Shown here one piece after another: positions 24,739 to 63,079 of a DNA stretch of 64,000 nucleotides. The translations under genes and the position numbers were made by a program. Each line of letters opens with the position of its first letter. The stretch's first letter is position 1. The notes beneath the pieces are model-generated. The model saw only the letters and a program-made list of their open reading frames with translations, searched no databases and was not told the origin of the DNA. Source of the stretch: Sphingosinicella flava (GTDB taxonomy: Bacteria; Pseudomonadota; Alphaproteobacteria; Sphingomonadales; Sphingomonadaceae); the NCBI RefSeq assembly GCF_016025255.1, contig NZ_CP065592.1, forward strand, positions 1,779,122 to 1,843,121, in the 5' to 3' direction.

Positions 24739-25248
24739 ATGCAGACCATGCCGATCAACGCTGGACTTTTGATCTTCCTTGCCACCGTCGCCGCGATGGA
24801 AGGCGTCGCTTATGCCGCCCATCGCTGGATCATGCATGGACCGGGCTGGTTCCTGCACGAAAGCCACCACCGCGAGCGCACCGGCCTGTTCGAGGCGAAC
24901 GATCTTTACGCGGTTATCTTCGCGGTGCCGTCCATCCTGTTGCTGTTGGGCGGCGTGCAGCTCGGCTGGGGGGCATGGGCGATATGGGCCGGGGCAGGGA
25001 TCGCGGCTTATGGCGCCATTTATTTCGGTTTTCATGACGTCATCGTCCACCGCCGCGTCGATCACCGCTATGTGCCACGCTCCCCTTACATGAAGCGCAT
25101 CGTGCAGGCCCACCGCCTCCACCATGCGACGGAAGGGAAGGAGGGATCGGTGAGTTTCGGTTTCCTGTGGGCGCCGCGGGCCGAGGTGCTGAAAGCGGAA
25201 CTGGCACGGAGCGCCGCGAAGAGGATGCGGGCGCCGAAAGGCCGCTAG
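24739..25248 (+). CDS. crtZ: Beta-carotene 3-hydroxylase CrtZ
   Basis: A 169-residue di-iron membrane hydroxylase adding 3-hydroxyls to beta-ionone rings, giving zeaxanthin. All His boxes are visible: HRWIMH at 28-33, HESHH at 40-44, FHDVIVHRRVDHRY near 98-111 and HRLHH near 125-129, with hydrophobic helices between. The last bases overlap the convergent crtB by four. The gene stands upstream of, and opposite to, the crtB-crtI-crtY unit, so it has its own promoter. Confidence 0.95.
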   Translation: MQTMPINAGLLIFLATVAAMEGVAYAAHRWIMHGPGWFLHESHHRERTGLFEANDLYAVIFAVPSILLLLGGVQLGWGAWAIWAGAGIAAYGAIYFGFHDVIVHRRVDHRYVPRSPYMKRIVQAHRLHHATEGKEGSVSFGFLWAPRAEVLKAELARSAAKRMRAPKGR

Positions 25249-26192
25249 GCGCGCGGCCGGGTCCAGAGGCCGTCGCGGCTGACCTCGCCGCCGCGCCCCG
25301 GAAACCGGGCTTCCTTCAATGCTGCCGCGACATGGCGGAGCTTTTCCGCCTTGCCGATGACGACGCGCCGGTCCCAGGCTTGCGCCCCGCGTTTCGCGAC
25401 TTCGCGGCCGATCGCCCCATAAATGTTGGCGGCGGACAGGACCGCCCAACGCGCGCGGAAGGGAAGGCGTGCAGCCCCGGTGCGCGCTGACGACTCATGG
25501 CGTTCGGCGAGTAGGGAAAGCCGTTTCGCGGCGATAGCCATGCGGGGGCGGTAATGCGGGCGCATATGTTCGCCGGGCGGAATGTCGAACTCCGCCAGCC
25601 AATCGAGCGGCAGGTAGCAGCGGCCGATGGCGTCGTCCTCGCCAAGGTCGCGGGCGATGTTGGCGAGCTGGAAGGCGAGGCCGAGGTCGCAAGCGCGGTC
25701 GAGCGTGTCGGCGTCGGCGGGATCGACCCCCATCAGCACCGCCATCATGCAGCCGACCGCGCCCGCGACATGATAGCAATATTGCAGGAGATCCTCTTCG
25801 GTGCGCGGCCGCCAGCCGCGCGCGTCCATCGCGAATCCGTCCAGATGATCGCGGATGAAGGCGTGGGGTATCGCGCATTCGGCGGCGACGATGCGCAAGG
25901 CGTCGAACGGCAGCTCTCCAGTGTCGCGGCCGGAAAGAGCGAAGGCGGTTTGGGATTGAATATGGTCGATCGCGGAGAATGCCCCCCCGCTTTCCGGGAG
26001 AGGCGCCTTATGCCCAAGGACTTGCCCGTCCGCATAATCGTCGCAGGCGCGGCACCAGGCGTAGAGCAGCCAGGCCCGTTCCCGCGTTGCCGGATCGAAC
26101 AGGCGGCTGGCGCTGGCGAAGGATTTGGAGCCCGCGCGGATCGTCGTCCAAGCCCCCGCGACGATCGCGGCGCGATCAGCCGCCGAGGTCAT
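25245..26192 (-). CDS. crtB: Phytoene synthase CrtB
   Basis: A 315-residue squalene/phytoene synthase that condenses two geranylgeranyl diphosphates. The first Asp-rich motif is in YAWCRACDDYAD (about residues 45-55) and the second in FQLANIARDLGEDD (about 175-187). It is the last gene of the minus-strand crtY-crtI-crtB unit and its start overlaps the crtI stop by 17 bases. crtE, which makes its substrate, is not in the window. Confidence 0.96.
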   Translation of the reverse strand: MTSAADRAAIVAGAWTTIRAGSKSFASASRLFDPATRERAWLLYAWCRACDDYADGQVLGHKAPLPESGGAFSAIDHIQSQTAFALSGRDTGELPFDALRIVAAECAIPHAFIRDHLDGFAMDARGWRPRTEEDLLQYCYHVAGAVGCMMAVLMGVDPADADTLDRACDLGLAFQLANIARDLGEDDAIGRCYLPLDWLAEFDIPPGEHMRPHYRPRMAIAAKRLSLLAERHESSARTGAARLPFRARWAVLSAANIYGAIGREVAKRGAQAWDRRVVIGKAEKLRHVAAALKEARFPGRGGEVSRDGLWTRPRA

Positions 26193-27654
26193 CGATCATC
26201 AATCCCGCCGTCGCCTTGGCGCTGCCGACGACGCCGGGAATGCCCGCGCCGGGATGCGTGCCCGCGCCCACGAAATAGAGGTTGGGGATATGGTCGTCGC
26301 GATTGTGGACGCGGAACCAGGCGCTTTGGGTCAGCACCGGCTCCAGGCTGAAGGCGGAGCCGAGATGGGCGGCGAGATCGCTGGTGAAATCCTGCGGCGT
26401 ATAGTGGAAACAGACCTCGATCTTGTCGCGCAGCCCCGGTGCCACGCGCTGTTCGACGACTTCAAGGATGCGGTCGCGATATTTCGGCCCTTCCACCGCC
26501 CAGTCGACGTCGAGCTTGCCCCGGTGCGGCACCGGCGCGAGCGCGTAAAAGGTTGAGCAGCCCGGCGGGGCCATGGCCGGATCGGTGACCGTCGGATGAT
26601 GGAGATAGAGCGCCGGATCGTCCGCCAGGCGCCCCCCATTATAGATATCGCCGAGCAGGCCCTGATAGCGCGGGCCGAACAGGATCATGTGGTGGGGAAT
26701 GTCCCGCCATTCCCCCTTCACGCCGAAATGGACGACGAAGAGCGAGGGTGAGAAACGCTTCTTGCGGAGGCGCGCGGCGGTTTTGCGCCCCGCATCCTTC
26801 AGGAGATCGTAGCTGTGCACGACATCGGCGTTGGAAGCGATGGCGTCGAACGACCCGCGCCAGCCGCTCGCGGTGCGGAGCCCAGTCGCGCGGCCGCCCG
26901 CCATTTCGATCTCCGCCACCGGATCACCGAGACGGATCGTGCCGCCTAGCCGTTCGAAATGACGCACCATGCCAGCGACCAGCCGGTTGGTGCCGCCACG
27001 CGCGAACCAGACGCCCCCGTCCCGTTCCAGCTTGTGGATGAGGGCGTATATCGCGCTGGTCGTCAGCGGATTGCCGCCGACCAGCAGGGTGTGGAAGGAG
27101 AGGGCCTGGCGCAGCTTTTCGCTGCGCACGAACCCCGATACGATCGAATAGACCGAGCGCCAAGCCTGGTAGCGGGCGAGGGCGGGAGCCGCCTTCAGCA
27201 TCGACGTGAAATCGAGAAAGGGGACGGCGCCCAATTTCTCATAGCCTTCGGCGTAGACGCCCGCCGAATAATCGAGGAAGCGGCGATAGCCCGCGACATC
27301 GGCGGGATCGAGCTTCGCGATCTCCTGGTTCAGCACCGCGTCGTCATTGGTGTAATCGAAATTGGTGCCGTCCGGCCAGTTGAGGCGATAGAAAGGGGAG
27401 ACCGGCATCAGGTCGACATCCGCCGCCATGTCGTGGCCGCTGAGCGCCCAAAGCTGGCGCAGGCAATCGGGATCGGTGATGACGGTCGGCCCGGCATCGA
27501 AGGTGTAGCCGCCCTTTTCCCAGAAATAAGCGCGGCCGCCGGGCTTGTCGCGCGCTTCAACGATCGTCGTTGCGATTCCCGCCGATTGGAGGCGGATGGC
27601 GAGGGCAAGGCCGCCGAAACCCGATCCGATAACCGCCGCGCTCTTCATTGTCAT
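26176..27654 (-). CDS. crtI: Phytoene desaturase CrtI
   Basis: A 492-residue FAD enzyme converting phytoene to lycopene in four steps. The N-terminal FAD motif AAVIGSGFGGLALAIRL is followed by the ARDKPGGRAYFWEKGGYTFD segment, and the C-terminus has YFVGAGTHPGAGIPGVVGSA, the bacterial CrtI signature. The start MTMKSAAV was chosen because its ATG overlaps the crtY stop (ATGA) and gives the usual length. Confidence 0.96.
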   Translation of the reverse strand: MTMKSAAVIGSGFGGLALAIRLQSAGIATTIVEARDKPGGRAYFWEKGGYTFDAGPTVITDPDCLRQLWALSGHDMAADVDLMPVSPFYRLNWPDGTNFDYTNDDAVLNQEIAKLDPADVAGYRRFLDYSAGVYAEGYEKLGAVPFLDFTSMLKAAPALARYQAWRSVYSIVSGFVRSEKLRQALSFHTLLVGGNPLTTSAIYALIHKLERDGGVWFARGGTNRLVAGMVRHFERLGGTIRLGDPVAEIEMAGGRATGLRTASGWRGSFDAIASNADVVHSYDLLKDAGRKTAARLRKKRFSPSLFVVHFGVKGEWRDIPHHMILFGPRYQGLLGDIYNGGRLADDPALYLHHPTVTDPAMAPPGCSTFYALAPVPHRGKLDVDWAVEGPKYRDRILEVVEQRVAPGLRDKIEVCFHYTPQDFTSDLAAHLGSAFSLEPVLTQSAWFRVHNRDDHIPNLYFVGAGTHPGAGIPGVVGSAKATAGLMIDDLGG

Positions 27655-28787
27655 AATGCCTTCATCGCCTTCATGATTGAAACGGGAGGACGGCCGCTCA
27701 ACGTGCGGACCTTGTCGAGGAGGGTGGTGCGTCCGGCGTAGAAACGGCCGATCAATGCCGGATCGAGCCGGTAGAAATGCTGGAGCACCCTGTAGCGTTC
27801 GGACGGCGGGGCGGCGCGGAACAGCATGCGGTTCAACAAGCGGTAAAAGCCGCGCTGCCGCCAGAGCCGATCGGCTTCTTTGCGGAAAATAGTATGAAGC
27901 GCCGCGCTGCCGAAATCCTGTTGGCGCGCGAGAAGAGCGGCATTGCGCACCGCATCCGGAAGCGAATAGCCGGTGGTCGGATGAAAGAAGCCGCCGCGCA
28001 GGCCAAGACGCGCGACCGGCACACCTTCCCACAGGTCCGCGATCCTGCCGCCCATGGCGACGGGCAGCACGCCCGATTCCTCGCCGATGATGCGCGCCGC
28101 GCGCCACCCCCGATCCGCGGCATAAGCATCGATGCGGGCGGCGATTTCACCACGGTCGAGATCGGACGACAGGCTATAATAGGTGTCTTCGACCAGCATC
28201 GTGCAGTCGGTGAAAGGCAGGGAATAGACGAAACGATAGCCGTCCGCCTGATCGACGCAGGCGTCCATGATGATTGGCCGGTCCAGCCCATGCGGGGTGT
28301 CAAAGGCATAGATGCGCCCGGCGAATTTCTGCCAGCCAAGGTCGAGGCTGTCGAGATTGGCGGCGCCGCGCGCGTCGATCACGCCGGCGGCATCGATCCG
28401 TTCTCCGCCGTCCAGCACGATATGATCGGCGGCAATCGCCGCGATCGGCGCGCCGAGACGAAGCTGATCGGGCCGGAGCCGTTCACGGATCGCGGCGTCG
28501 AGGCGGTCCGACGTGATGCTGTTATAGCCGAAGGGCAGAGTCCGCCGCCGCTTTGGAAAAATGACGTCATGGCGGCTCCAGCGCGCATGGATCAGGGAAT
28601 CAATCAGCCAGCGATCCTCCGCCGTCACGTCGCCGTCGAAAAAGGACCAGGTGTGATTGCCGCCGATCCGATCCTCACCCTCGACGAGGAGAAAGGGAAC
28701 GTCCGGCCGCCGCTGGGCAAGCGCCAGCGCCGCGAGCGCGCCCGCGAGCCCGCCGCCCGCGATGACGAGGCGTCCCCCGCCCGCCAT
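27651..28787 (-). CDS. crtY: Lycopene beta-cyclase CrtY
   Basis: A 378-residue flavoprotein that closes both ends of lycopene to beta-carotene. The dinucleotide motif LVIAGGGLAGALAALALAQR starts at about residue 6, followed by GEDRIGGNHTWSFFDGDVT. LVEDTYYS and HPTTGYSLPDAVRNA are characteristic of the CrtY type. It overlaps crtI by four bases. The gene before it on the same strand ends one base away, so transcription may begin further upstream. Confidence 0.95.
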   Translation of the reverse strand: MAGGGRLVIAGGGLAGALAALALAQRRPDVPFLLVEGEDRIGGNHTWSFFDGDVTAEDRWLIDSLIHARWSRHDVIFPKRRRTLPFGYNSITSDRLDAAIRERLRPDQLRLGAPIAAIAADHIVLDGGERIDAAGVIDARGAANLDSLDLGWQKFAGRIYAFDTPHGLDRPIIMDACVDQADGYRFVYSLPFTDCTMLVEDTYYSLSSDLDRGEIAARIDAYAADRGWRAARIIGEESGVLPVAMGGRIADLWEGVPVARLGLRGGFFHPTTGYSLPDAVRNAALLARQQDFGSAALHTIFRKEADRLWRQRGFYRLLNRMLFRAAPPSERYRVLQHFYRLDPALIGRFYAGRTTLLDKVRTLSGRPPVSIMKAMKAL

Positions 28788-34919: not shown

Positions 34920-35023
34920 TCATCTGAAATAGTCCCGGACGCGGCAAGAACCAAGCGTCTCGCGCCTTGACCTGGGAGTCCGCGGGAGCGCATGGTAAAT
35001 AAGCGGAACATTTGGGGGCCATT

Positions 35024-37330
35024 ATGGCGGCATCGGTAGCGCGCAACGGGCGGATCGCCCGCATCGGCGACGGCATGAAACGGGGGGCACGGCGCACCGG
35101 CGCGGTGCTGGCCGGGGGGAGCGTGGCAATTCTCTCGTTGCTCCTCGCAAGCGCCCTGATCAGCTACCGGCCGAGCGATCCTTCGCTCAATACCGCCGCC
35201 GGCGGCCCGGTCGGCAATTGGGCGGCAGCGCCGGGGGCTTACGCATCCGATTTGCTGCTCAGCCTGTTCGGCCTCCCGGCTGGGCTGATCGTGCCGATCC
35301 TCCTCCTTGCCGGTTTGCGCACCGCCCGCGGCGCCGTTCCCGGACGGCGCCTAAGGGCGGGGCTGTTCACACTTTTCGGCATCGTGCTCATCGGGACGGC
35401 GGCCGCGCTCATATCGGGCGGCGCGATCAACGGGCTGCCCGCCGGATGGGGTGGCGCGACCGGCTTGTCGCTTGCCGCCTTCGTCGACATGGGCCTCGCC
35501 GCCATTCGCGAGCCGAGCTTCACCGAGCCTTTCCGAATCGTGCTGATCGGCCTGTTCGCATTGACCGGCTTGGCCCTGTGGTTTTTCGGCCTCGACCTCC
35601 GTCCTGAGGAGAAAAGCTGGATGGCCGGAAGACGGCGCAAGACCTTCCGCTCCGCCGTTGCCGATTACGAAGATGACGATCTCTTCGAAGAGCCGGAAGA
35701 GCGCACTCCGGTGGCGCCGCCCCCGCCGAACCGCACCGTCATCAACGACCGGCCGCAATCCCCCAACAGCGGCAAGCGCCCGCAACGCGAGCGACAGACG
35801 TCGCTGGCGCTGGGCGATTCCTATGCGTTGCCGACGCTCGACCTGCTCAATCCGCCGCCGCCGCCGGTCAACAATGCGCTCGACAAAGCGAGCCTGGAGC
35901 GCAACGCCCGCCTCCTCGAAACGGTGCTTGAGGACTTTTCGGTCAAGGGAGAGATCGTTGAGGTGCGCCCCGGCCCCGTCGTCACCATGTACGAACTGGA
36001 ACCGGCGAGCGGGATCAAGGCGAGCCGCGTCATCCAGCTGGCCGACGACATCGCGCGCAACATGTCCGCTTTGTCCGCCCGCGTCGCGACCATTCCGGGC
36101 CGCACCGTGATCGGCATTGAGCTCCCCAACGCCAAGCGCGAGACGGTGTCGCTGTCTGAGCTGATCGCGAGCGATGCGTTCGAGAACCAGCAGGCTTCGC
36201 TGCCGCTCATCCTCGGCAAGAATATCGCGGGCGACCCGGTCGTCGCGGATCTGGCGCCGATGCCCCATTTGCTCGTCGCGGGCACGACCGGGTCGGGCAA
36301 GTCGGTCGGGCTCAACTGCATGATCCTTTCGCTCCTTTACCGGCTGACCCCGGATGAGTGCCGGATGATCATGATCGATCCCAAGATGCTGGAGCTCAGC
36401 ATCTATGACGATATCCCCCACCTCCTCTCGCCGGTCGTGACCGAGCCGGCCAAGGCGATCCGCGCCCTCAAATGGACGGTCGAGCAGATGGAGGAACGCT
36501 ACCGGATGATGGCGTCGGTCGGTGTCCGTTCCCTCGCCAGCTTCAACCAGAAGGTGCGCGAGGCGAAGGGAAAGGGCCAAGCGCTCGGCCGCCGCGTCCA
36601 AACCGGCTACGACCCCGAAACCGGCCAGCCCAAATATGAGAATGAGGAGCTGGATTTCGACATCCTGCCGCAGATCGTCGTGGTGGTGGACGAACTCGCC
36701 GACCTGATGATGACGGCGGGCAAGGAAGTCGAATTTCTGATCCAACGCCTGGCCCAGAAGGCGCGCGCGGCGGGCATCCACCTCATCATGGCGACGCAGC
36801 GTCCGTCCGTCGACGTCATCACCGGCGTCATCAAGGCCAATCTGCCGACCCGCATCTCCTTCTCCGTCACCTCGAAGATCGATTCGCGTACGATCTTGGG
36901 TGAACAGGGCGCCGAGCAGCTGCTGGGCAAGGGCGACATGCTCTACATGCCCGGCGGCAAGCAGATCGCGCGCGTCCACGGCCCCTTCGTGTCCGACGAG
37001 GAAGTGCGCGCCGTCGCCGACCATTGGCGGGCGCAGGGCACGCCGGACTATATCCAAGCGGTGACCGAGGAACCGGCGGACGGCGGGTATATGTTCGAAG
37101 GCCAGCCGACCGGCGACGACGATCCCGAGGCGCAACTTTACCGCAAGGCCGTGCAGACGGTCGCCGAGAGCCAGAAGGCGTCGACCAGCTATATCCAGCG
37201 CCAGCTTCGCATCGGCTATAACAGCGCCGCGCGGCTCATCGAGCGGATGGAGAAGGACGGCATCGTGTCCTCCCCCGATCATGTCGGGCGGCGCGAAGTT
37301 CTGATCGATGCCGAGGGGCACGCCATCTGA
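35024..37330 (+). CDS. ftsK: DNA translocase FtsK
   Basis: A 768-residue septal DNA pump. About four N-terminal membrane helices (residues 25-195) anchor it. A rather short proline-rich linker follows, then the motor with Walker A VAGTTGSGKSVGLN (about 422-435), Walker B IVVVVDELADLMM, and MATQRPSVDVITGVIKANLP. The C-terminal gamma winged-helix domain that reads KOPS/FtsK-orienting sites is present (AVQTVAESQKASTSYIQRQL onward). The ATG at 35024 was preferred over TTG 35012. lolA follows. Confidence 0.96.
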   Translation: MAASVARNGRIARIGDGMKRGARRTGAVLAGGSVAILSLLLASALISYRPSDPSLNTAAGGPVGNWAAAPGAYASDLLLSLFGLPAGLIVPILLLAGLRTARGAVPGRRLRAGLFTLFGIVLIGTAAALISGGAINGLPAGWGGATGLSLAAFVDMGLAAIREPSFTEPFRIVLIGLFALTGLALWFFGLDLRPEEKSWMAGRRRKTFRSAVADYEDDDLFEEPEERTPVAPPPPNRTVINDRPQSPNSGKRPQRERQTSLALGDSYALPTLDLLNPPPPPVNNALDKASLERNARLLETVLEDFSVKGEIVEVRPGPVVTMYELEPASGIKASRVIQLADDIARNMSALSARVATIPGRTVIGIELPNAKRETVSLSELIASDAFENQQASLPLILGKNIAGDPVVADLAPMPHLLVAGTTGSGKSVGLNCMILSLLYRLTPDECRMIMIDPKMLELSIYDDIPHLLSPVVTEPAKAIRALKWTVEQMEERYRMMASVGVRSLASFNQKVREAKGKGQALGRRVQTGYDPETGQPKYENEELDFDILPQIVVVVDELADLMMTAGKEVEFLIQRLAQKARAAGIHLIMATQRPSVDVITGVIKANLPTRISFSVTSKIDSRTILGEQGAEQLLGKGDMLYMPGGKQIARVHGPFVSDEEVRAVADHWRAQGTPDYIQAVTEEPADGGYMFEGQPTGDDDPEAQLYRKAVQTVAESQKASTSYIQRQLRIGYNSAARLIERMEKDGIVSSPDHVGRREVLIDAEGHAI

Positions 37331-46997: not shown

Positions 46998-47888
46998 TTA
47001 TATCCGTTCGTTGCTGAGGCGCTGGCAGATCATGTCGAGCTGATCGAGCGTCGAATAAGTGAGGGTCACCGTGCCGCCCGCGCCGTCCTGATAGCCGATT
47101 GCTACCTTGAGGCCGAGCATGTCGCCAAGCTGGCGCTCGAGCGCCGCAAGGTCCGCATCCTTGGCGCCGCCCCCGGACGGCACCCGGTCTCCCGCCGCCT
47201 TGCGCGGCTTCGCATCGCGGACCAATTTCTCGACGTCGCGCACCGACAAGCCGCGCGCGACGATATCATCCGCCAGCTGCTCGGCATCGGGCGCAGAAAC
47301 GAGCGCGCGGGCATGGCCCATGCTGATCTCGCCCGACGCCACCTTGGCGCGGACCGACGCCGGCAGGTCGAGCAGGCGGAGGAGATTGGCGACGTGGCTG
47401 CGCGATTTGTGGACGATCTTGCCCAGCGCGTCCTGGGTGTGCCCGAAATCGGCGATGAGGCGCTGATAGGCTTCCGCTTCCTCGACCGCATTCAGATCCT
47501 GGCGCTGGATGTTTTCGATCAGCGCGACTTCAAGCGTGTTGGGATCGTCGAACTCGCGGACGACGACCGGCACTTCGTGAAGCTGGGCACGCTGTGCCGC
47601 CCGCCAACGCCGCTCGCCCGCAACGATTTGATACCGGCCGCCATGGGGACGGACGACGAGCGGCTGGAGCACGCCGCGCGCACGGATCGACTCGGCGAGT
47701 TCGTTCAGAGCGGCTTCGTCGAAATGGCGGCGCGGCTGATCGGGATTGGGAGCGATGCTCGCTACGGGCACGAGTTGAACGCCCTTGCCGGCGCCGGGGC
47801 GTTCTTCGGAGGGGGCGCTTTCGCCCAGCAGGGCGGACAGGCCGCGGCCCAATCCCGGCGCGCGCTTTCTCATCGGAATTTCGCTCAT
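46998..47888 (-). CDS. parB: Chromosome partition protein ParB
   Basis: A 296-residue CTP-dependent DNA clamp. It begins with the ParA-contact segment APGLGRGLSALLGE. It then has the CTP/nuclease-like domain with IAPNPDQPRRHFDEAALNEL and YQIVAGERRWRAAQRAQL (box GERRWRA), the helix-turn-helix DFGHTQDALGKIVHKSRSHV that reads parS, and a C-terminal dimer helix. Its ATG overlaps the parA stop (ATGA). Two parS-like sites lie nearby. Confidence 0.97.
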   Translation of the reverse strand: MSEIPMRKRAPGLGRGLSALLGESAPSEERPGAGKGVQLVPVASIAPNPDQPRRHFDEAALNELAESIRARGVLQPLVVRPHGGRYQIVAGERRWRAAQRAQLHEVPVVVREFDDPNTLEVALIENIQRQDLNAVEEAEAYQRLIADFGHTQDALGKIVHKSRSHVANLLRLLDLPASVRAKVASGEISMGHARALVSAPDAEQLADDIVARGLSVRDVEKLVRDAKPRKAAGDRVPSGGGAKDADLAALERQLGDMLGLKVAIGYQDGAGGTVTLTYSTLDQLDMICQRLSNERI

Positions 47889-48667
47889 GCGGCTTCTGCT
47901 TTCTCCGGCAAGCGGGCGATCAATTCCCGCGCGAGGGACATATAGGCTTCGGACCCCGGACAACGCATGTCGTAGATGAGCGCCGGTATGCCATGGCTAG
48001 GCGCCTCGGACAGGCGGACATTTCGCGGAATAACCGTATCGAACACGGTTTTGCCGAGCACGGCGCGGACATCGTCGGCCACTTGGCCGGACAAATTGTT
48101 GCGGCGATCGAACATGGTGAGGGCAACGCCGACCACGGAAAGCCCCGGATTGAAGCGGTCGCGGACGAGCTCGATTGTACGGAGCAGCTGGCTTAGGCCT
48201 TCCAAAGCGAAAAATTCCGCCTGCAACGGTACGAAAATCGACTCCGCGGCGACCAGCGCGTTGACGGTGAGAAGACCGAGCGAGGGCGGGCAATCGATCA
48301 GGCAAATGTCCCAGCGGGCCGCGCCGGACGCGTTCAGCGCGGCGTCCAATCGATGGGTGCGGTCGGGCTCGCCCACCAGCTCGACCTCGGCGCCGGAGAG
48401 GTTCACGGTCGCGGGAACGACATGAAGGTTGGGAACGATGGTGGCGACCGCGACGTCCTCCAATCCGCCATTGCCGAGGAGGAGATCGTAACTGGACGAT
48501 TCGCGTTGGGAATGATCGACTCCGAGGCCCGTCGACGCGTTGCCCTGCGGATCGAGATCGACGACCAAAACCTTCCAGCCGGTCGCGGCGAGCGCGGTGG
48601 CTATGTTGATTGTCGTGGTGGTCTTCCCCACCCCGCCTTTCTGGTTGGCGACCGCGAGCTTGATCAT
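47885..48667 (-). CDS. parA: Chromosome partition ATPase ParA
   Basis: A 260-residue deviant Walker ATPase that moves ParB-parS complexes. NQKGGVGKTTTTINIATALA is at residues 8-27 with the signature Lys. VDLDPQGNASTGLGVD, CLIDCPPSLGLLTVNAL and ALTMFDRRNNLSGQVADDVR follow. The start at 48667 was chosen because it overlaps the rsmG stop and starts the conserved IKLAVANQKGG strand. It forms an mnmG-rsmG-parA-parB unit. Confidence 0.97.
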   Translation of the reverse strand: MIKLAVANQKGGVGKTTTTINIATALAATGWKVLVVDLDPQGNASTGLGVDHSQRESSSYDLLLGNGGLEDVAVATIVPNLHVVPATVNLSGAEVELVGEPDRTHRLDAALNASGAARWDICLIDCPPSLGLLTVNALVAAESIFVPLQAEFFALEGLSQLLRTIELVRDRFNPGLSVVGVALTMFDRRNNLSGQVADDVRAVLGKTVFDTVIPRNVRLSEAPSHGIPALIYDMRCPGSEAYMSLARELIARLPEKAEAA

Positions 48668-49293
48668 GTGCGCCTCGTCCCCTTCGCCCGCTGAACCCCC
48701 TGCGCCACGATGATTCCAGCGTCGGAATCGGTCAGGCTGGGCTCGACCCGGAAGAAACCGTGCCACAAACCCGCCTGCGCTTCCAGTTCCGATGCAGCAT
48801 TGCGTCCTTTCGGCAAGATCCAGGTCGTGCCCTTATCCGAAAACGGCAATCCGAGCGGCAGGATAGTGTGCAGGGGCGCAAAAGCGCGGGCGCTGATGAC
48901 GTCATAGCGGCGCGGCGGTACCCGCTCCACTTTGGCGCACAGAATTTGCGTTTTGCCTGAAAGAGCGAGCGTGTCGGCGGCACGGCGGAGAAAATCGACG
49001 CGTTTCGGCCGCGTTTCGACCATAGTCACTTTTGCCTGAGAGAGCGCTGCGATAATCAGGCCAGGAAAGCCTGCGCCAGTCCCGAGATCGATCCAGCTTT
49101 TGGCATCGGGCGCGAATCGCAAAAGTTGCGCAGAGTCCCAAATATGGCGTTCCCAAATAGAATCCAGGGTTGCGCGGGATATCAGATTTTGGACTTCATT
49201 TTCTGAACGGAGCAGCGCGACAAAGGCCTCCATCCTTTCCAATGTTTCACGTGAAACATTGCAGTGTCTTTCAACCCATGCCCGCCCGTTCAT
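48664..49293 (-). CDS. rsmG: 16S rRNA (guanine-527-N7)-methyltransferase RsmG (GidB)
   Basis: A 209-residue SAM methyltransferase. The SAM loop is SWIDLGTGAGFPGLIIAALS. NLISRATLDSIWERHIWDSA and VISARAFAPLHTILPLGLP are family blocks. The codons for NVSRET near the N-terminus contain a perfect parS palindrome. The ATG overlaps the mnmG stop by one base (TAATG), and its own stop overlaps parA. Confidence 0.96.
   Translation of the reverse strand: MNGRAWVERHCNVSRETLERMEAFVALLRSENEVQNLISRATLDSIWERHIWDSAQLLRFAPDAKSWIDLGTGAGFPGLIIAALSQAKVTMVETRPKRVDFLRRAADTLALSGKTQILCAKVERVPPRRYDVISARAFAPLHTILPLGLPFSDKGTTWILPKGRNAASELEAQAGLWHGFFRVEPSLTDSDAGIIVAQGVQRAKGTRRT
49241..49260. promoter_or_regulatory. parS centromere site inside rsmG
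   Basis: The core TGTTTCACGTGAAACA (49243-49258) is identical to the universal chromosomal parS consensus, and the palindrome extends two bases on each side. It lies within the first codons of rsmG, 0.6 kb upstream of parA. ParB would nucleate and spread here. Confidence 0.95.
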
Positions 49294-51176: not shown

Positions 51177-51194
51177 ATGTTCCACGTGGAACAT
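51177..51194. promoter_or_regulatory. Variant parS-like site between mnmE and mnmG
   Basis: TGTTCCACGTGGAACA (51178-51193) is a perfect 16-base palindrome that differs from consensus parS by one symmetrical base pair change in each half. It sits in the short spacer between the mnmE stop and the mnmG start, 1.9 kb from the perfect site. Known parS sets tolerate a change at this position. Confidence 0.75.
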
Positions 51195-54956: not shown

Positions 54957-55418
54957 TCAGAACGGCCGGACGATGACCAGAATAACGATAAGGGCGGTGG
55001 CGATGCCCGGCACTTCGTTCATAATGCGAAGCGCTTTGCCGCTGACCGGGCGCTCGCCCCGCGCCAGCTTCTTGCCGTAGCTCACCATATAGCCATGATA
55101 GCCCGACAAAATAAGGACCAGCGCAAATTTCGCGTGGAACCAGCCTTGGCTCCAGGCTCCCGTCGTATAGGCAAGGGTCAAACCGAAGACCCAGACCAGG
55201 ATCATCGCCGGCGTGAGGATGATGTTGCGAAGTTTCCGCTCGCGGTCGATCCAGCGCGCTTCCTCGTCCGAGCCCGGCGCCGCTTCCTGATGATAGATGT
55301 AATAACGCGGCAGCATGAACAGGCCCGCGATCCAGAAGATCACGAAGATGAGGTGGCCCGCCTTGATCCACGCATAGGTCATGCTGAGCGCCGTAGCGAG
55401 GTTGAGCCCGTCCGTCAC
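54957..55418 (-). CDS. hemJ: Protoporphyrinogen oxidase HemJ
   Basis: A 153-residue protein with four membrane helices. YAWIKAGHLIFVIFWIAGLF contains the essential His, followed by MLPRYYIYH, and FHAKFALVLILSGYHGYMVS carries further conserved residues. It oxidises protoporphyrinogen IX to protoporphyrin IX in heme synthesis and is the usual version in alphaproteobacteria. It overlaps hemE by four bases. Confidence 0.95.
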   Translation of the reverse strand: MTDGLNLATALSMTYAWIKAGHLIFVIFWIAGLFMLPRYYIYHQEAAPGSDEEARWIDRERKLRNIILTPAMILVWVFGLTLAYTTGAWSQGWFHAKFALVLILSGYHGYMVSYGKKLARGERPVSGKALRIMNEVPGIATALIVILVIVRPF

Positions 55419-56440
55419 GCGCGGACGATCCTCAGCAAGGCTTCGACATGGTTGATCGGTGTATCCGGCAAGATGCCATGCCCCAGGTTGAAGACGTGCG
55501 GACGATCTTCGAAGGCCGATATGATATGGCGCGCCGCCTTTTCAAGCGCGTTTCCGCCGGCAATGAGCGCGAGAGGATCGAGATTGCCCTGCACCGGAAG
55601 GGTCGCGGGCAGTTCCCGCGCCGCCCAGAGCGGATCCACGGTTTCATCAAGCCCGATCGCGTCGACGCCCGTTTCGCGCGCATAAGCGGCGAGCTTGCCG
55701 CCCGCGCCTTTGGGAAAGCCGATGACCGGCACATTAGGATGGCGTGCCTTGAAAGCGGCGACGATGGCGGCGGTCGGCACGACGACCCAGCGTTCGAATT
55801 GCTCCGGCGACAGGCTTCCAGCCCAGCTGTCGAACAGCTGCACGGCTTCCACGCCTGCCCGCACCTGACCCGACAGATAGTCCACGGTCATGCCGGATAT
55901 GGCGTCGATGATCGCCTGGAAGGCCTGGGGGTCGCGATAAGCGTAACGCCGCGCCTCGGCCTGCTCGCGGCTGCCCTGGCCGGCCACCATATAGGTCGCG
56001 ACGGTCCAGGGACTGCCCGCGAAGCCGAGGAAGGTCGTTTGCGCCGGCAATGCGGCCGCCACCTTTTCCACAGTCCGGTATATGGGCTGCAAACGGCCGG
56101 AAACGGCCTCCAGAGCGCGTAAATCGCTATCGACGAGAGGTGGGGTCAATCGCGGGCCTTCTCCGGCCACAAAGGTCAAATCCTGGCCAAGCGCATGGGG
56201 GATGACGAGAATGTCGGAGAATAAGATCGCGCCGTCGAACCCGAACCGGCGGATCGGCTGAAGCGTGATTTCGGCCGCCGCCTCCGGATCGTAGGCCATG
56301 TCGAGAAAGCCGCCCTTGGCCGCCCGGAGCGCGCGATATTCGGGCAGATAGCGTCCGGCCTGACGCATCAGCCAGATCGGCCGGACGCCCGGATTTCCGC
56401 CATTCAGGACGGTCAGCAAAGGCTTCGATATTCCGCTCAT
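55415..56440 (-). CDS. hemE: Uroporphyrinogen decarboxylase
   Basis: A 341-residue enzyme converting uroporphyrinogen III to coproporphyrinogen III. RPIWLMRQAGRYLPEYRALR near residue 20, FDGAILFSDILVIPHALG, GFAGSPWTVATYMVAG and VFNLGHGILPDTPINHVEAL are all diagnostic. The ATG at 56440 was chosen over one nine codons upstream because MSGISKPLL is the family-like start. Its 5' end borders the putative replication origin, as in Caulobacter. Confidence 0.97.
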   Translation of the reverse strand: MSGISKPLLTVLNGGNPGVRPIWLMRQAGRYLPEYRALRAAKGGFLDMAYDPEAAAEITLQPIRRFGFDGAILFSDILVIPHALGQDLTFVAGEGPRLTPPLVDSDLRALEAVSGRLQPIYRTVEKVAAALPAQTTFLGFAGSPWTVATYMVAGQGSREQAEARRYAYRDPQAFQAIIDAISGMTVDYLSGQVRAGVEAVQLFDSWAGSLSPEQFERWVVVPTAAIVAAFKARHPNVPVIGFPKGAGGKLAAYARETGVDAIGLDETVDPLWAARELPATLPVQGNLDPLALIAGGNALEKAARHIISAFEDRPHVFNLGHGILPDTPINHVEALLRIVRA

Positions 56441-56464
56441 GGCAAGGCTGGCTCCGCTCGGTCC

Positions 56465-56489
56465 CAAAAATAATATTATATTTATAGAG
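56465..56489. other. AT-rich block, candidate DNA unwinding element
   Basis: A run of about 25 bases made almost only of A and T (AAAAATAATATTATATTTAT and on), striking in a 65 percent GC genome. It sits between hemE and the DnaA-box cluster, the expected place for the unwinding element; it could also contain the hemE promoter. Confidence 0.65.
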
Positions 56490-56607
56490 AGTCTGATGAA
56501 GGAAGTAGGGCGCTGGATGCCGGGGTTTATTGGCTTGCCCCGTTCTTGCCAACAGTTTGACTCTGGCGCGGCCGCGGAAGCGCGCGGATTCGCCGGATTT
56601 ATCCCCG

Positions 56608-56616
56608 TGATCCACA
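56608..56616 (+). promoter_or_regulatory. DnaA box (Caulobacter G-box type)
   Basis: TGATCCACA is one base from the E. coli R1 consensus TTATCCACA and identical to the G-box of the Caulobacter origin. A weaker TTATCCCCG touches it on the left. Confidence 0.65.
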
Positions 56617-56731
56617 GGATGAACGTGGAACCTTTCCGATGTTCGCCAAAGTGTGGATGGAAATTGTGGAAGCGGGGGCAAAAGCTTTCCTTGAATCGAT
56701 CCCAAGCCTTCCGCTAGCCCTATCCCCATGG

Positions 56732-56740
56732 TTTTCCACA
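56732..56740 (+). promoter_or_regulatory. DnaA box
   Basis: TTTTCCACA fits the general consensus TT(A/T)TNCACA. It lies 23 bases before the ppsR-type ATG and between the arms of the 9-base inverted repeat. Confidence 0.6.
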
Positions 56741-56762
56741 AGCAGTTCGGGCGGGATAGGGA

Positions 56763-57584
56763 ATGAATCGGCTGCATCTCCACCTGCTGTCGGATTCGAC
56801 CGGCGAAACCCTTGAAATGATTGCCAAGGCTTGTCTTTCCCAATTCGACGAGGTCGAGACGATCAAGCATTTCTGGCCGATGGTCCGGTCCGAAGGCCAT
56901 CTCGATCGCGTGCTGGAGGATATCGAGCGGCGGCCGGGCCTCGTTCTCTTCACCCTCGCCAACAACATGGTGCGGCGCGAGCTGGAGCAAAAATGCCGCC
57001 GCAAGGGAATAGCCGCCGTTTCGGCGCTGGATCCCGTGATCGACGCATTGACCGTCGCCTTCGGTCAGCAAGCCAAGGCGCGGCCTGGACGGCAGCACGC
57101 CCTTGATGAGGCTTATTTCGCCCGCGTCGACGCCATTCAGTTCACCATCGCCCATGACGACGGGATCGGGTGGGAGAATTGGGAAGAGGCCGACGTGGTG
57201 CTGGCCGGGGTTTCCCGCACCTCGAAGACGCCGACGTCCATCTATCTTGCCAACAAGGGTTATAAGGTCGCCAATATTCCACTGGTTCCCGAATTGCCGC
57301 TGCCGCCCAGCCTGTTCGCCCTCAACCATCCGCTCGTCGTCGGCCTCACCACCAATTCCGACCGGCTGATCCAGATAAGGCGCAACCGGCTGCTGTCGCT
57401 CAACCAGGCGCCGGAAACCGATTATGTGGACGAGCAAGCGGTCGCCGCCGAACTGGCCTTCGCGCGCCGCCTGTTCGCAGACAATGGCTGGCCGGTCATC
57501 GACGTGACCCGCCGTTCGATCGAAGAAACCGCCTTCGCGATCGTCAAGCTCGTCAATCAGCGGCTGGACGCCGCGGAAGAATGA
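56763..57584 (+). CDS. Pyruvate, phosphate dikinase / PEP synthase regulatory protein (DUF299)
   Basis: A 273-residue bifunctional kinase/pyrophosphorylase that switches PPDK or PEP synthetase on and off by ADP-dependent threonine phosphorylation. RLHLHLLSDSTGETLEMIAK opens the protein and the P-loop is LAGVSRTSKTPTSIYLANKG near residue 150. RLIQIRRNRL follows. It starts directly at the origin region and leads a chain of coupled genes (maf, aroE, coaE). The same gene is beside the origin in other alphaproteobacteria. Confidence 0.94.
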   Translation: MNRLHLHLLSDSTGETLEMIAKACLSQFDEVETIKHFWPMVRSEGHLDRVLEDIERRPGLVLFTLANNMVRRELEQKCRRKGIAAVSALDPVIDALTVAFGQQAKARPGRQHALDEAYFARVDAIQFTIAHDDGIGWENWEEADVVLAGVSRTSKTPTSIYLANKGYKVANIPLVPELPLPPSLFALNHPLVVGLTTNSDRLIQIRRNRLLSLNQAPETDYVDEQAVAAELAFARRLFADNGWPVIDVTRRSIEETAFAIVKLVNQRLDAAEE

Positions 57585-62371: not shown

Positions 62372-63079
62372 ATGCTTGTTTCCGTGCGCGCTGCGGCCTT
62401 TGCCGTGGCCTCTTTTGCTGTTGCGCTTACCGCTACCTTCCGGCCGTCCATGGCCGAAGAGGCGGATGCGGCTCCGGTGGCCGCCTCTTATGCGGTCCAT
62501 GCCGCCGCCGCCATCGAGGACGGCGTTCAAAATGTCGACACGCTGGCTCCGGCCGCGACTGAAATTTCCACCGATCCTGCCGCTTCCATTGCAGAGCATG
62601 CCGTCGCGATCACGGATCCTGCCGACGCAGCGGATGAATCCGACAATGCGGGCAAAACCCTCGCCCAACCCAAGACCCTGAGCGCGATGGTCGACGATCT
62701 TGCCGACAATGGCCTCGACGCCGAAATGGAATGCCTTGCCGGCGCCGTCTATTTCGAATCGAAGGGCGAACCGCTGGAAGGGCAGCTCGCCGTCGCCGAG
62801 GTCATCATCAACCGCATGAAGTCGGGACGTTTCGCCTCTACCCTGTGCGGCGTCGTGAAACAGCGCGGGCAGTTTTCCTTCGTTCGCGGCGGCAAGTTCC
62901 CGCCGATCGCGCGCGGTTCCGCCCATTGGAAAAAAGCGGTCGGCATCGCCCATGTCGCGATGCAGGATCTGGCCGACAGCAAGGTCGACGATGCCCTATT
63001 CTTCCACGCCCGCCGCGTATCGCCGGGTTGGAAGCTGAAGCGCCTGGCGACCGTCGGGAATCACGTTTTTTATCGCTGA
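62372..63079 (+). CDS. Exported cell-wall hydrolase (SleB/CwlJ-like, Hydrolase_2)
   Basis: A 235-residue protein with a signal peptide (VRAAAFAVASFAVALTATFR), a low-complexity Ala/Asp/Glu linker, and a C-terminal Hydrolase_2 domain from about residue 120: LAGAVYFESKGEPLEGQLAV with catalytic Glu candidates, INRMKSGRFASTLCGVVKQR and a terminal FYR. The family cuts peptidoglycan as lytic transglycosylases or amidases. It stands alone, with a terminator downstream. Confidence 0.88.
   Translation: MLVSVRAAAFAVASFAVALTATFRPSMAEEADAAPVAASYAVHAAAAIEDGVQNVDTLAPAATEISTDPAASIAEHAVAITDPADAADESDNAGKTLAQPKTLSAMVDDLADNGLDAEMECLAGAVYFESKGEPLEGQLAVAEVIINRMKSGRFASTLCGVVKQRGQFSFVRGGKFPPIARGSAHWKKAVGIAHVAMQDLADSKVDDALFFHARRVSPGWKLKRLATVGNHVFYR

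Follow-up and report, generated by a model that had tools for sequence, protein, structure and literature searches.

The closest described relatives of the locus studied here are replication origins bordered by hemE; published work is quoted below from the available portions of the cited papers. In Caulobacter, the experimentally identified origin (Cori) lies between hemE and a COG1806/DUF299 gene, and the Rickettsia origin is bounded by the same pair; in Wolbachia and its kin the pairing is broken, so it is not universal (PMC1914354). The origin of Sphingopyxis granuli TFA was placed near hemE, where the DoriC predictions also put the origins of most Sphingomonadaceae (PMC4741004), and that of Novosphingobium PP1Y was likewise predicted at hemE (PMC4059872). 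Proximity of dnaA to the origin is not conserved in Sphingomonadales, where a distant dnaA is ordinary (PMC8116508). Our literature search, by title and beginning of the abstract and with subscription journals mostly outside its coverage, found no experimental origin mapping in Sphingomonadaceae.

We analyzed a 64-kb stretch of DNA, hereafter the window (64,000 nucleotides; G000:C1:1779122-1843121), from a genome consisting of one contig of 2,421,597 bases that is 99.94% complete. A first-pass annotation made from the letters alone had read the gap between hemE and the gene for a PPDK/PEPS regulator as the chromosomal origin. This intergenic gap of 322 bp runs from the hemE start (56440) to the regulator start (56763) and has hemE on one side and a COG1806/DUF299 gene on the other, the arrangement of Cori. 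We regard it as highly probable that the gap serves this bacterium as its chromosomal replication origin (oriC), a prediction supported by the sampled GC skew, a dif-like site, the parS sites, a group of DnaA boxes and the hemE/COG1806 pairing. Because the Cori, TFA, PP1Y and DoriC precedents also lie at hemE, the locus would be a new example of an established origin type. The coordinates of its features are collected in Table 1.

Table 1. Features of the predicted origin and its surroundings (window coordinates)
Feature	Position	Strand	Remarks
parB	46998..47963	-	TIGR00180, 200.3 bits, above cut-off
parA	47885..48766	-	ParA-type matches, none over curated cut-off
parS TGTTTCACGTGAAACA	49243..49258		in rsmG coding region or between mnmG and mnmE (one parS each)
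parS TGTTCCACGTGGAACA	51178..51193		in rsmG coding region or between mnmG and mnmE (one parS each)
hemE, uroporphyrinogen decarboxylase	55415..56440	-	left origin border; TIGR01464, 390.7 bits, above cut-off
DnaA-box-like TTTTCCACA	56064..56072	+	within hemE
Intergenic gap, predicted oriC	56441..56762		G000:C1:1835562-1835883
All-A/T block, likely DNA unwinding element	56466..56486		21 bp, 21/21 A/T
GANTC site 1 of 4	56489..56493		
Triplet tract, DnaA-trio-like layout	56496..56508	+	four WWG triplets, one slipped base (ATG AAG g AAG TAG)
Conserved 16-bp element TTGCCAACAGTTTGAC	56546..56561		also given as TTGCCAACAGYTTGAC; overlaps the IHF-like match
IHF-like match	56550..56562	-	12 of 13 consensus positions
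GANTC site 2 of 4	56559..56563		
GANTC site 3 of 4	56587..56591		conserved position
Weak W-box-like TCCCC site TTATCCCCG	56599..56607	+	abuts the TGATCCACA box
DnaA box TGATCCACA	56608..56616	+	identical to Caulobacter G-box (PMC4285127)
Weaker DnaA-like box CCATCCACA	56652..56660	-	
Weaker DnaA-like box GCTTCCACA	56665..56673	-	
GANTC site 4 of 4	56693..56697		
TCCCCA, Caulobacter W-box consensus	56723..56728	+	consensus from PMC4285127
DnaA box TTTTCCACA	56732..56740	+	adjoins regulator gene; conserved position
PPDK/PEPS regulator (DUF299/COG1806)	56763..57584	+	right origin border; PRK05339, 331.4 bits, above cut-off

Coding direction switches at the gap, as the first-pass annotation had stated. 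To the right, all eleven plus-strand genes it counted have family hits, some of which score under the curated cut-off (e.g. maf, aroE and a SleB-like gene). To the left, it had counted ten minus-strand genes; the strand was right and the number was not, with nine genes having family hits (hemE, hemJ, rho, a TerC-family gene, mnmE, mnmG, rsmG, parA and parB), past which leuS and lptE lie on the plus strand. The gap has a GC content of 0.543, whereas 2-kb windows along the 64 kb have 0.599-0.693; its AT content is therefore above average. Elsewhere in the window, carotenoid-type genes for a phytoene/squalene synthase, an amine-oxidoreductase-family protein and a lycopene cyclase are grouped at 25245-28787 (GC 0.65-0.68), and an FtsK translocase gene (35012-37330) lies about 20 kb from the predicted origin. 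The SleB-like gene (62372-63079), under the curated cut-off, is named after a spore cortex hydrolase family; since we know of no spore formation in sphingomonads, it probably encodes an ordinary cell-wall hydrolase.

The arrangement of the two border genes is nearly invariant among relatives. Of 110 loci, the one studied here included, 109 (79/80 named, 30/30 in the order set) have a divergent hemE upstream of the regulator gene, and the single exception, L096, contains just 297 bp of upstream DNA. Gap length ranges from 271 to 554 bp, with a median of 314. At least 582 loci were confirmed by the regulator protein; the best 80 of them (70-84% identical) serve as the named loci and belong mostly to Sphingosinicella, Sphingomonas and other sphingomonad records, which places the organism itself in Sphingomonadales, probably close to Sphingosinicella. 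The order loci are the best 30 among 57 genomes with a match, 60 having been searched; NCBI taxonomy places Sphingosinicella in Sphingosinicellaceae, Sphingomonadales. The gap alignment used below comprises 77 of the 79 named gaps, two gaps of at least 420 bp being left out.

At the scale of the chromosome, cumulative GC skew was sampled in 60 segments of 8 kb (20% of the sequence, with a step of about 40 kb and masked bases in one sample). Its minimum falls at the sample starting at 1,777,601 and its maximum at the one starting at 767,601. With the correlation of neighbours ignored, the half-circle skew contrast centred on the gap was matched by 4 of 10,000 permutations and the best contrast anywhere by 7 of 2000. 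A two-break fit placed the origin between the samples starting at 1,777,601 and 1,818,001, a little to the left of the gap; under a block bootstrap, 73% of the fitted origins fell within 100 kb, and the terminus ranged over 0.55-1.00 Mb. Sampled densely over 303 kb, the skew bottoms out locally near 1.78 Mb, some 55 kb to the left of the gap, and is near-flat from there to about 1.92 Mb. A skew minimum at the gap, the check proposed in the first-pass annotation, was thus found regionally in the samples but not at fine scale, and because of this offset and the flat slope the skew backs the region, not the base pair.

Further landmarks are arranged around the gap. A pattern that we take to describe dif found a sole match in the genome, at 691,080-691,101 with two mismatches, and its reversed control found none. 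Measured from the gap to this dif-like site, the two arms are 1.277 and 1.145 Mb long, so the two lie roughly opposite each other; at least about 80 kb separate the site from the sampled skew maximum, and it falls inside the bootstrap terminus range. Within one mismatch of the presumed parS pattern, the genome holds two places only; both belong to the window and are 5.2 and 7.2 kb away from the gap, with parA and parB (46998-48766) nearby, as had been described.

The dnaA gene (945,096-946,424) is 890 kb away, in agreement with the earlier remark that it is not adjacent. We consider an origin at dnaA, as in many bacteria, to be extremely unlikely: although the gene holds one TTTTCCACA, the genome has no second TKWTCCACA within 39 kb of it, the skew contradicts this placement, with dnaA closer to the sampled maximum (about 0.77-0.81 Mb) than to the minimum, and in the order at large dnaA does not keep to the origin (PMC8116508). 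The first-pass annotation had also supposed that a distant dnaA would hide the origin from searches. This seems mistaken, as current tools would probably find it, hemE-linked Sphingomonadaceae origins having already been predicted with Ori-Finder (PMC4741004, PMC4059872).

The DnaA boxes point to the gap itself. All the boxes proposed earlier, namely one identical to the Caulobacter G-box, a second strong one and two weaker ones, were located there. Genome-wide, the pattern TKWTCCACA has 51 sites and its reversed control 35; two of the 51 are inside the gap and a third in hemE, all three within 677 bp. This trio is the tightest such group of the genome and forms a DnaA-box cluster; elsewhere, the two closest pairs of neighbours have spacings of 978 and 1271 bp. 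Three of 51 sites fell within 677 bp anywhere in 0.45% of simulations, and the Poisson chance of at least two in the gap is 2.3e-5. Dinucleotide shuffles of the gap contained 0.004 strong boxes on average versus the two observed, and none of 1000 reached two. Across 109 gaps, the locus itself included, the mean is 1.10 strong boxes per gap (0.012 in dinucleotide shuffles), with at least one in 77 and at least two in 33. As a raw count taken without a shuffle control, a TCCCCR site stands beside a box in 43 of 79 named gaps and in 7 of 29 order-level gaps.

The gap might instead do no more than carry promoters in both directions, for hemE and for the regulator, with its DnaA boxes used for transcription control and the true origin some kilobases off. 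The gap must hold promoters for both genes anyway, and the fine skew minimum about 55 kb to the left would suit such a displacement. Yet a consensus scan of 56400-56800, of a kind that alphaproteobacterial promoters can escape, found 0 sigma-70-like promoters versus 0.3 in shuffles, every other pair of neighbouring TKWTCCACA sites is at least 978 bp apart, and the box group, parS, the gene pairing and an extreme of helical stability described below all favour the gap. We therefore judge the promoter-only reading to be quite unlikely and keep to that of an origin. An Rfam scan of 55901-57300 returned zero matches at the gathering score. The first-pass annotation had also listed a 9-bp inverted repeat (56718-56726 / 56753-56761); it exists, but we rejected it as an origin feature, since its right arm falls in sequence that the alignment shows to be unconserved, which leaves it weak evidence.

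The part of the gap nearer to hemE contains the AT-rich block reported earlier. By nearest-neighbour energies, for which we assumed standard values, the least stable 25-bp stretch of the whole 64 kb starts at 56466, the first base of this block, and the least stable 50-bp stretch at 56457. In the named relatives, the most AT-rich 40 nt are about as far from the regulator gene as here. A tract of WWG triplets stands beside the block. Such tracts are terminated by a G[TA][TA]G anchor, and their longest chain averages 3.4 triplets versus 1.8 in shuffles over 80 loci; the locus itself, present both as the window and as L144, was entered twice in one triplet-tract count. The anchor precedes the 16-bp element discussed below by exactly 41 nt in 56 of 72 relatives, whereas the other tested offsets gave 4.9 on average and 29 at most. 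According to the available text of PMC8287927, a strict DnaA-trio requires NAN trios, at least three of them, no more than 16 bp from a box that has up to two mismatches. By this definition, and with both box orientations allowed, the gap has 0 candidates for a strict trio module of the basal unwinding system (BUS). We therefore rejected that assignment for this gap and retained the label of a trio-like triplet tract. Over 109 gaps, 57 contain the strict module while simple shuffles give 24.2; local AT richness may account for part of this excess.

A strongly conserved feature is the 16-bp element TTGCCAACAGYTTGAC, found with up to three mismatches in 72 of 79 named relatives; one shuffle of each named gap left at least four mismatches in all 79. 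In its own genome the 16-mer is single-copy within two mismatches. A search of 12 other genus members found it within one mismatch in 11, each time upstream of the regulator gene by about 200-250 bp. In the order set, up to three mismatches allowed, 7 of the 13 same-family loci contain it and none of the 16 other-family loci does. One-mismatch copies off the origin, either far from the regulator gene or on a different contig, are present in five of eight other-family genomes, so the bare 16-mer pattern is not origin-specific at that level; G071 also carries one extra off-origin copy at one mismatch.

As to what the element is, we rejected a degenerate DnaA box, since its first nine bases are 3 or 4 off TTATCCACA in 75 of 80 loci. 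A promoter seems unlikely as well: there is no sigma-70-like pair in 56400-56800, and no conserved -10-like block follows TTGAC in the alignment. The minus strand also reads TTGGCA, with which a promoter would still be compatible. The overlapping IHF-like match, scored against a consensus that we presume to be that of IHF, is expected 0.12 times per 322 bp in the window, and an IHF-alpha gene is present in the genome. Judged by sequence conservation, a strongly conserved 16-bp element inside the putative origins of sphingomonad relatives appears to be a new detail.

GANTC sites are unusually dense in the gap. From 780 kb of sampled sequence (including overlaps), 0.48 sites would be expected per 322 bp; the gap has four, an approximately eightfold excess, and only 13 of 4723 windows of 322 bp have at least four. 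The named relatives average 4.9 sites per 322 bp in the gap versus 0.73 in the remainder of the locus, with the gap being the GANTC-richest stretch of the locus in 58 of 79; both controls (windows from the whole genome, and each locus outside its gap) are mostly coding. The mean over 16 other-family order loci is 2.2 per 322 bp. A GcrA-family gene is present in the genome. Since GANTC sites in the Caulobacter origin and a general intergenic GANTC excess were reported earlier (PMC3973325, available portion), we regard the present excess as an extension of those observations.

The gap has no TTAA, so Caulobacter-style CtrA binding is not expected there, and full CtrA sites (TTAA-N7-TTAA), absent from the gap, are rare among relatives (three of the 79 named gaps, one of the 29 at order level). 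An origin timed by CtrA as in Caulobacter is accordingly very unlikely, even though the gene pair and the G-box sequence are shared with Cori and Sphingomonadales retain the CckA-ChpT-CtrA relay (PMC2877005); in Sphingomonas melonis, growth did not suffer from the loss of ctrA (PMC8116508). CtrA sites mark Caulobacter-type control, not origin status, and for this reason we do not class the gap as a CtrA-controlled Cori, while we retain its assignment as an origin.

From the anatomy, conservation and position of the gap, we infer that DnaA, IHF and methylation act there and that replication initiates there. In the sequence of events that we propose, DnaA would first occupy the stronger 9-mers TGATCCACA and TTTTCCACA and then spread to weaker neighbours, namely the TCCCC sites and the inverted boxes. 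The 16-bp element, perhaps bent by IHF, would carry the complex toward hemE, where DnaA might load on one strand of the triplet tract and the AT block would melt. Helicases could then enter and forks leave both ways, and ParB on the two nearby parS sites would segregate the new origins.

A more tentative proposal is that sphingomonads possess an origin architecture of their own, in which a near-invariant TTGCCAACAGYTTGAC is locked 41 bp from a triplet tract beside the unwinding block, weak and strong DnaA boxes are paired, and dense GANTC takes the place of CtrA sites. Initiation would then be timed by the CcrM methylation state as read by GcrA or DnaA, not by CtrA. We consider this possible, though rather doubtful as a whole. 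The predicted origin would set position zero and the two replication arms for a genome with a far-off dnaA, and the 16-mer and the GANTC cluster offer leads on replication timing in alphaproteobacteria without CtrA sites at the origin. The remainder of the finding confirms an established rule.

Compared with known systems, the locus resembles the Bacillus-type basal unwinding system in that the triplet tract sits between the AT block and the boxes, and is unlike it in failing the trio definition as given in the available part of PMC8287927. Like the predicted oriC of TFA, PP1Y and other Sphingomonadaceae, it adjoins hemE and contains several DnaA boxes, and with TFA it also shares a putative unwinding element. 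In PP1Y, hemE and the DnaA gene are near each other (PMC4059872), unlike the 890 kb that separate dnaA from the gap here, and the accessible portions of the reports on these predicted origins do not mention the 16-mer or the GANTC excess. Relative to Caulobacter crescentus Cori, as far as the available descriptions go, the gap is without CtrA (TTAA-N7-TTAA) sites, has one G-box and one TTTTCCACA where Cori has two G-boxes, and differs in its candidate IHF sequence. It shares with Cori the hemE/DUF299 (COG1806) borders, the TGATCCACA G-box, the TCCCCA W-box, an AT-rich stretch and GANTC sites, and the pairing of TCCCCR sites with boxes in sphingomonad gaps resembles the Caulobacter W-box and G-box classes (PMC4285127).
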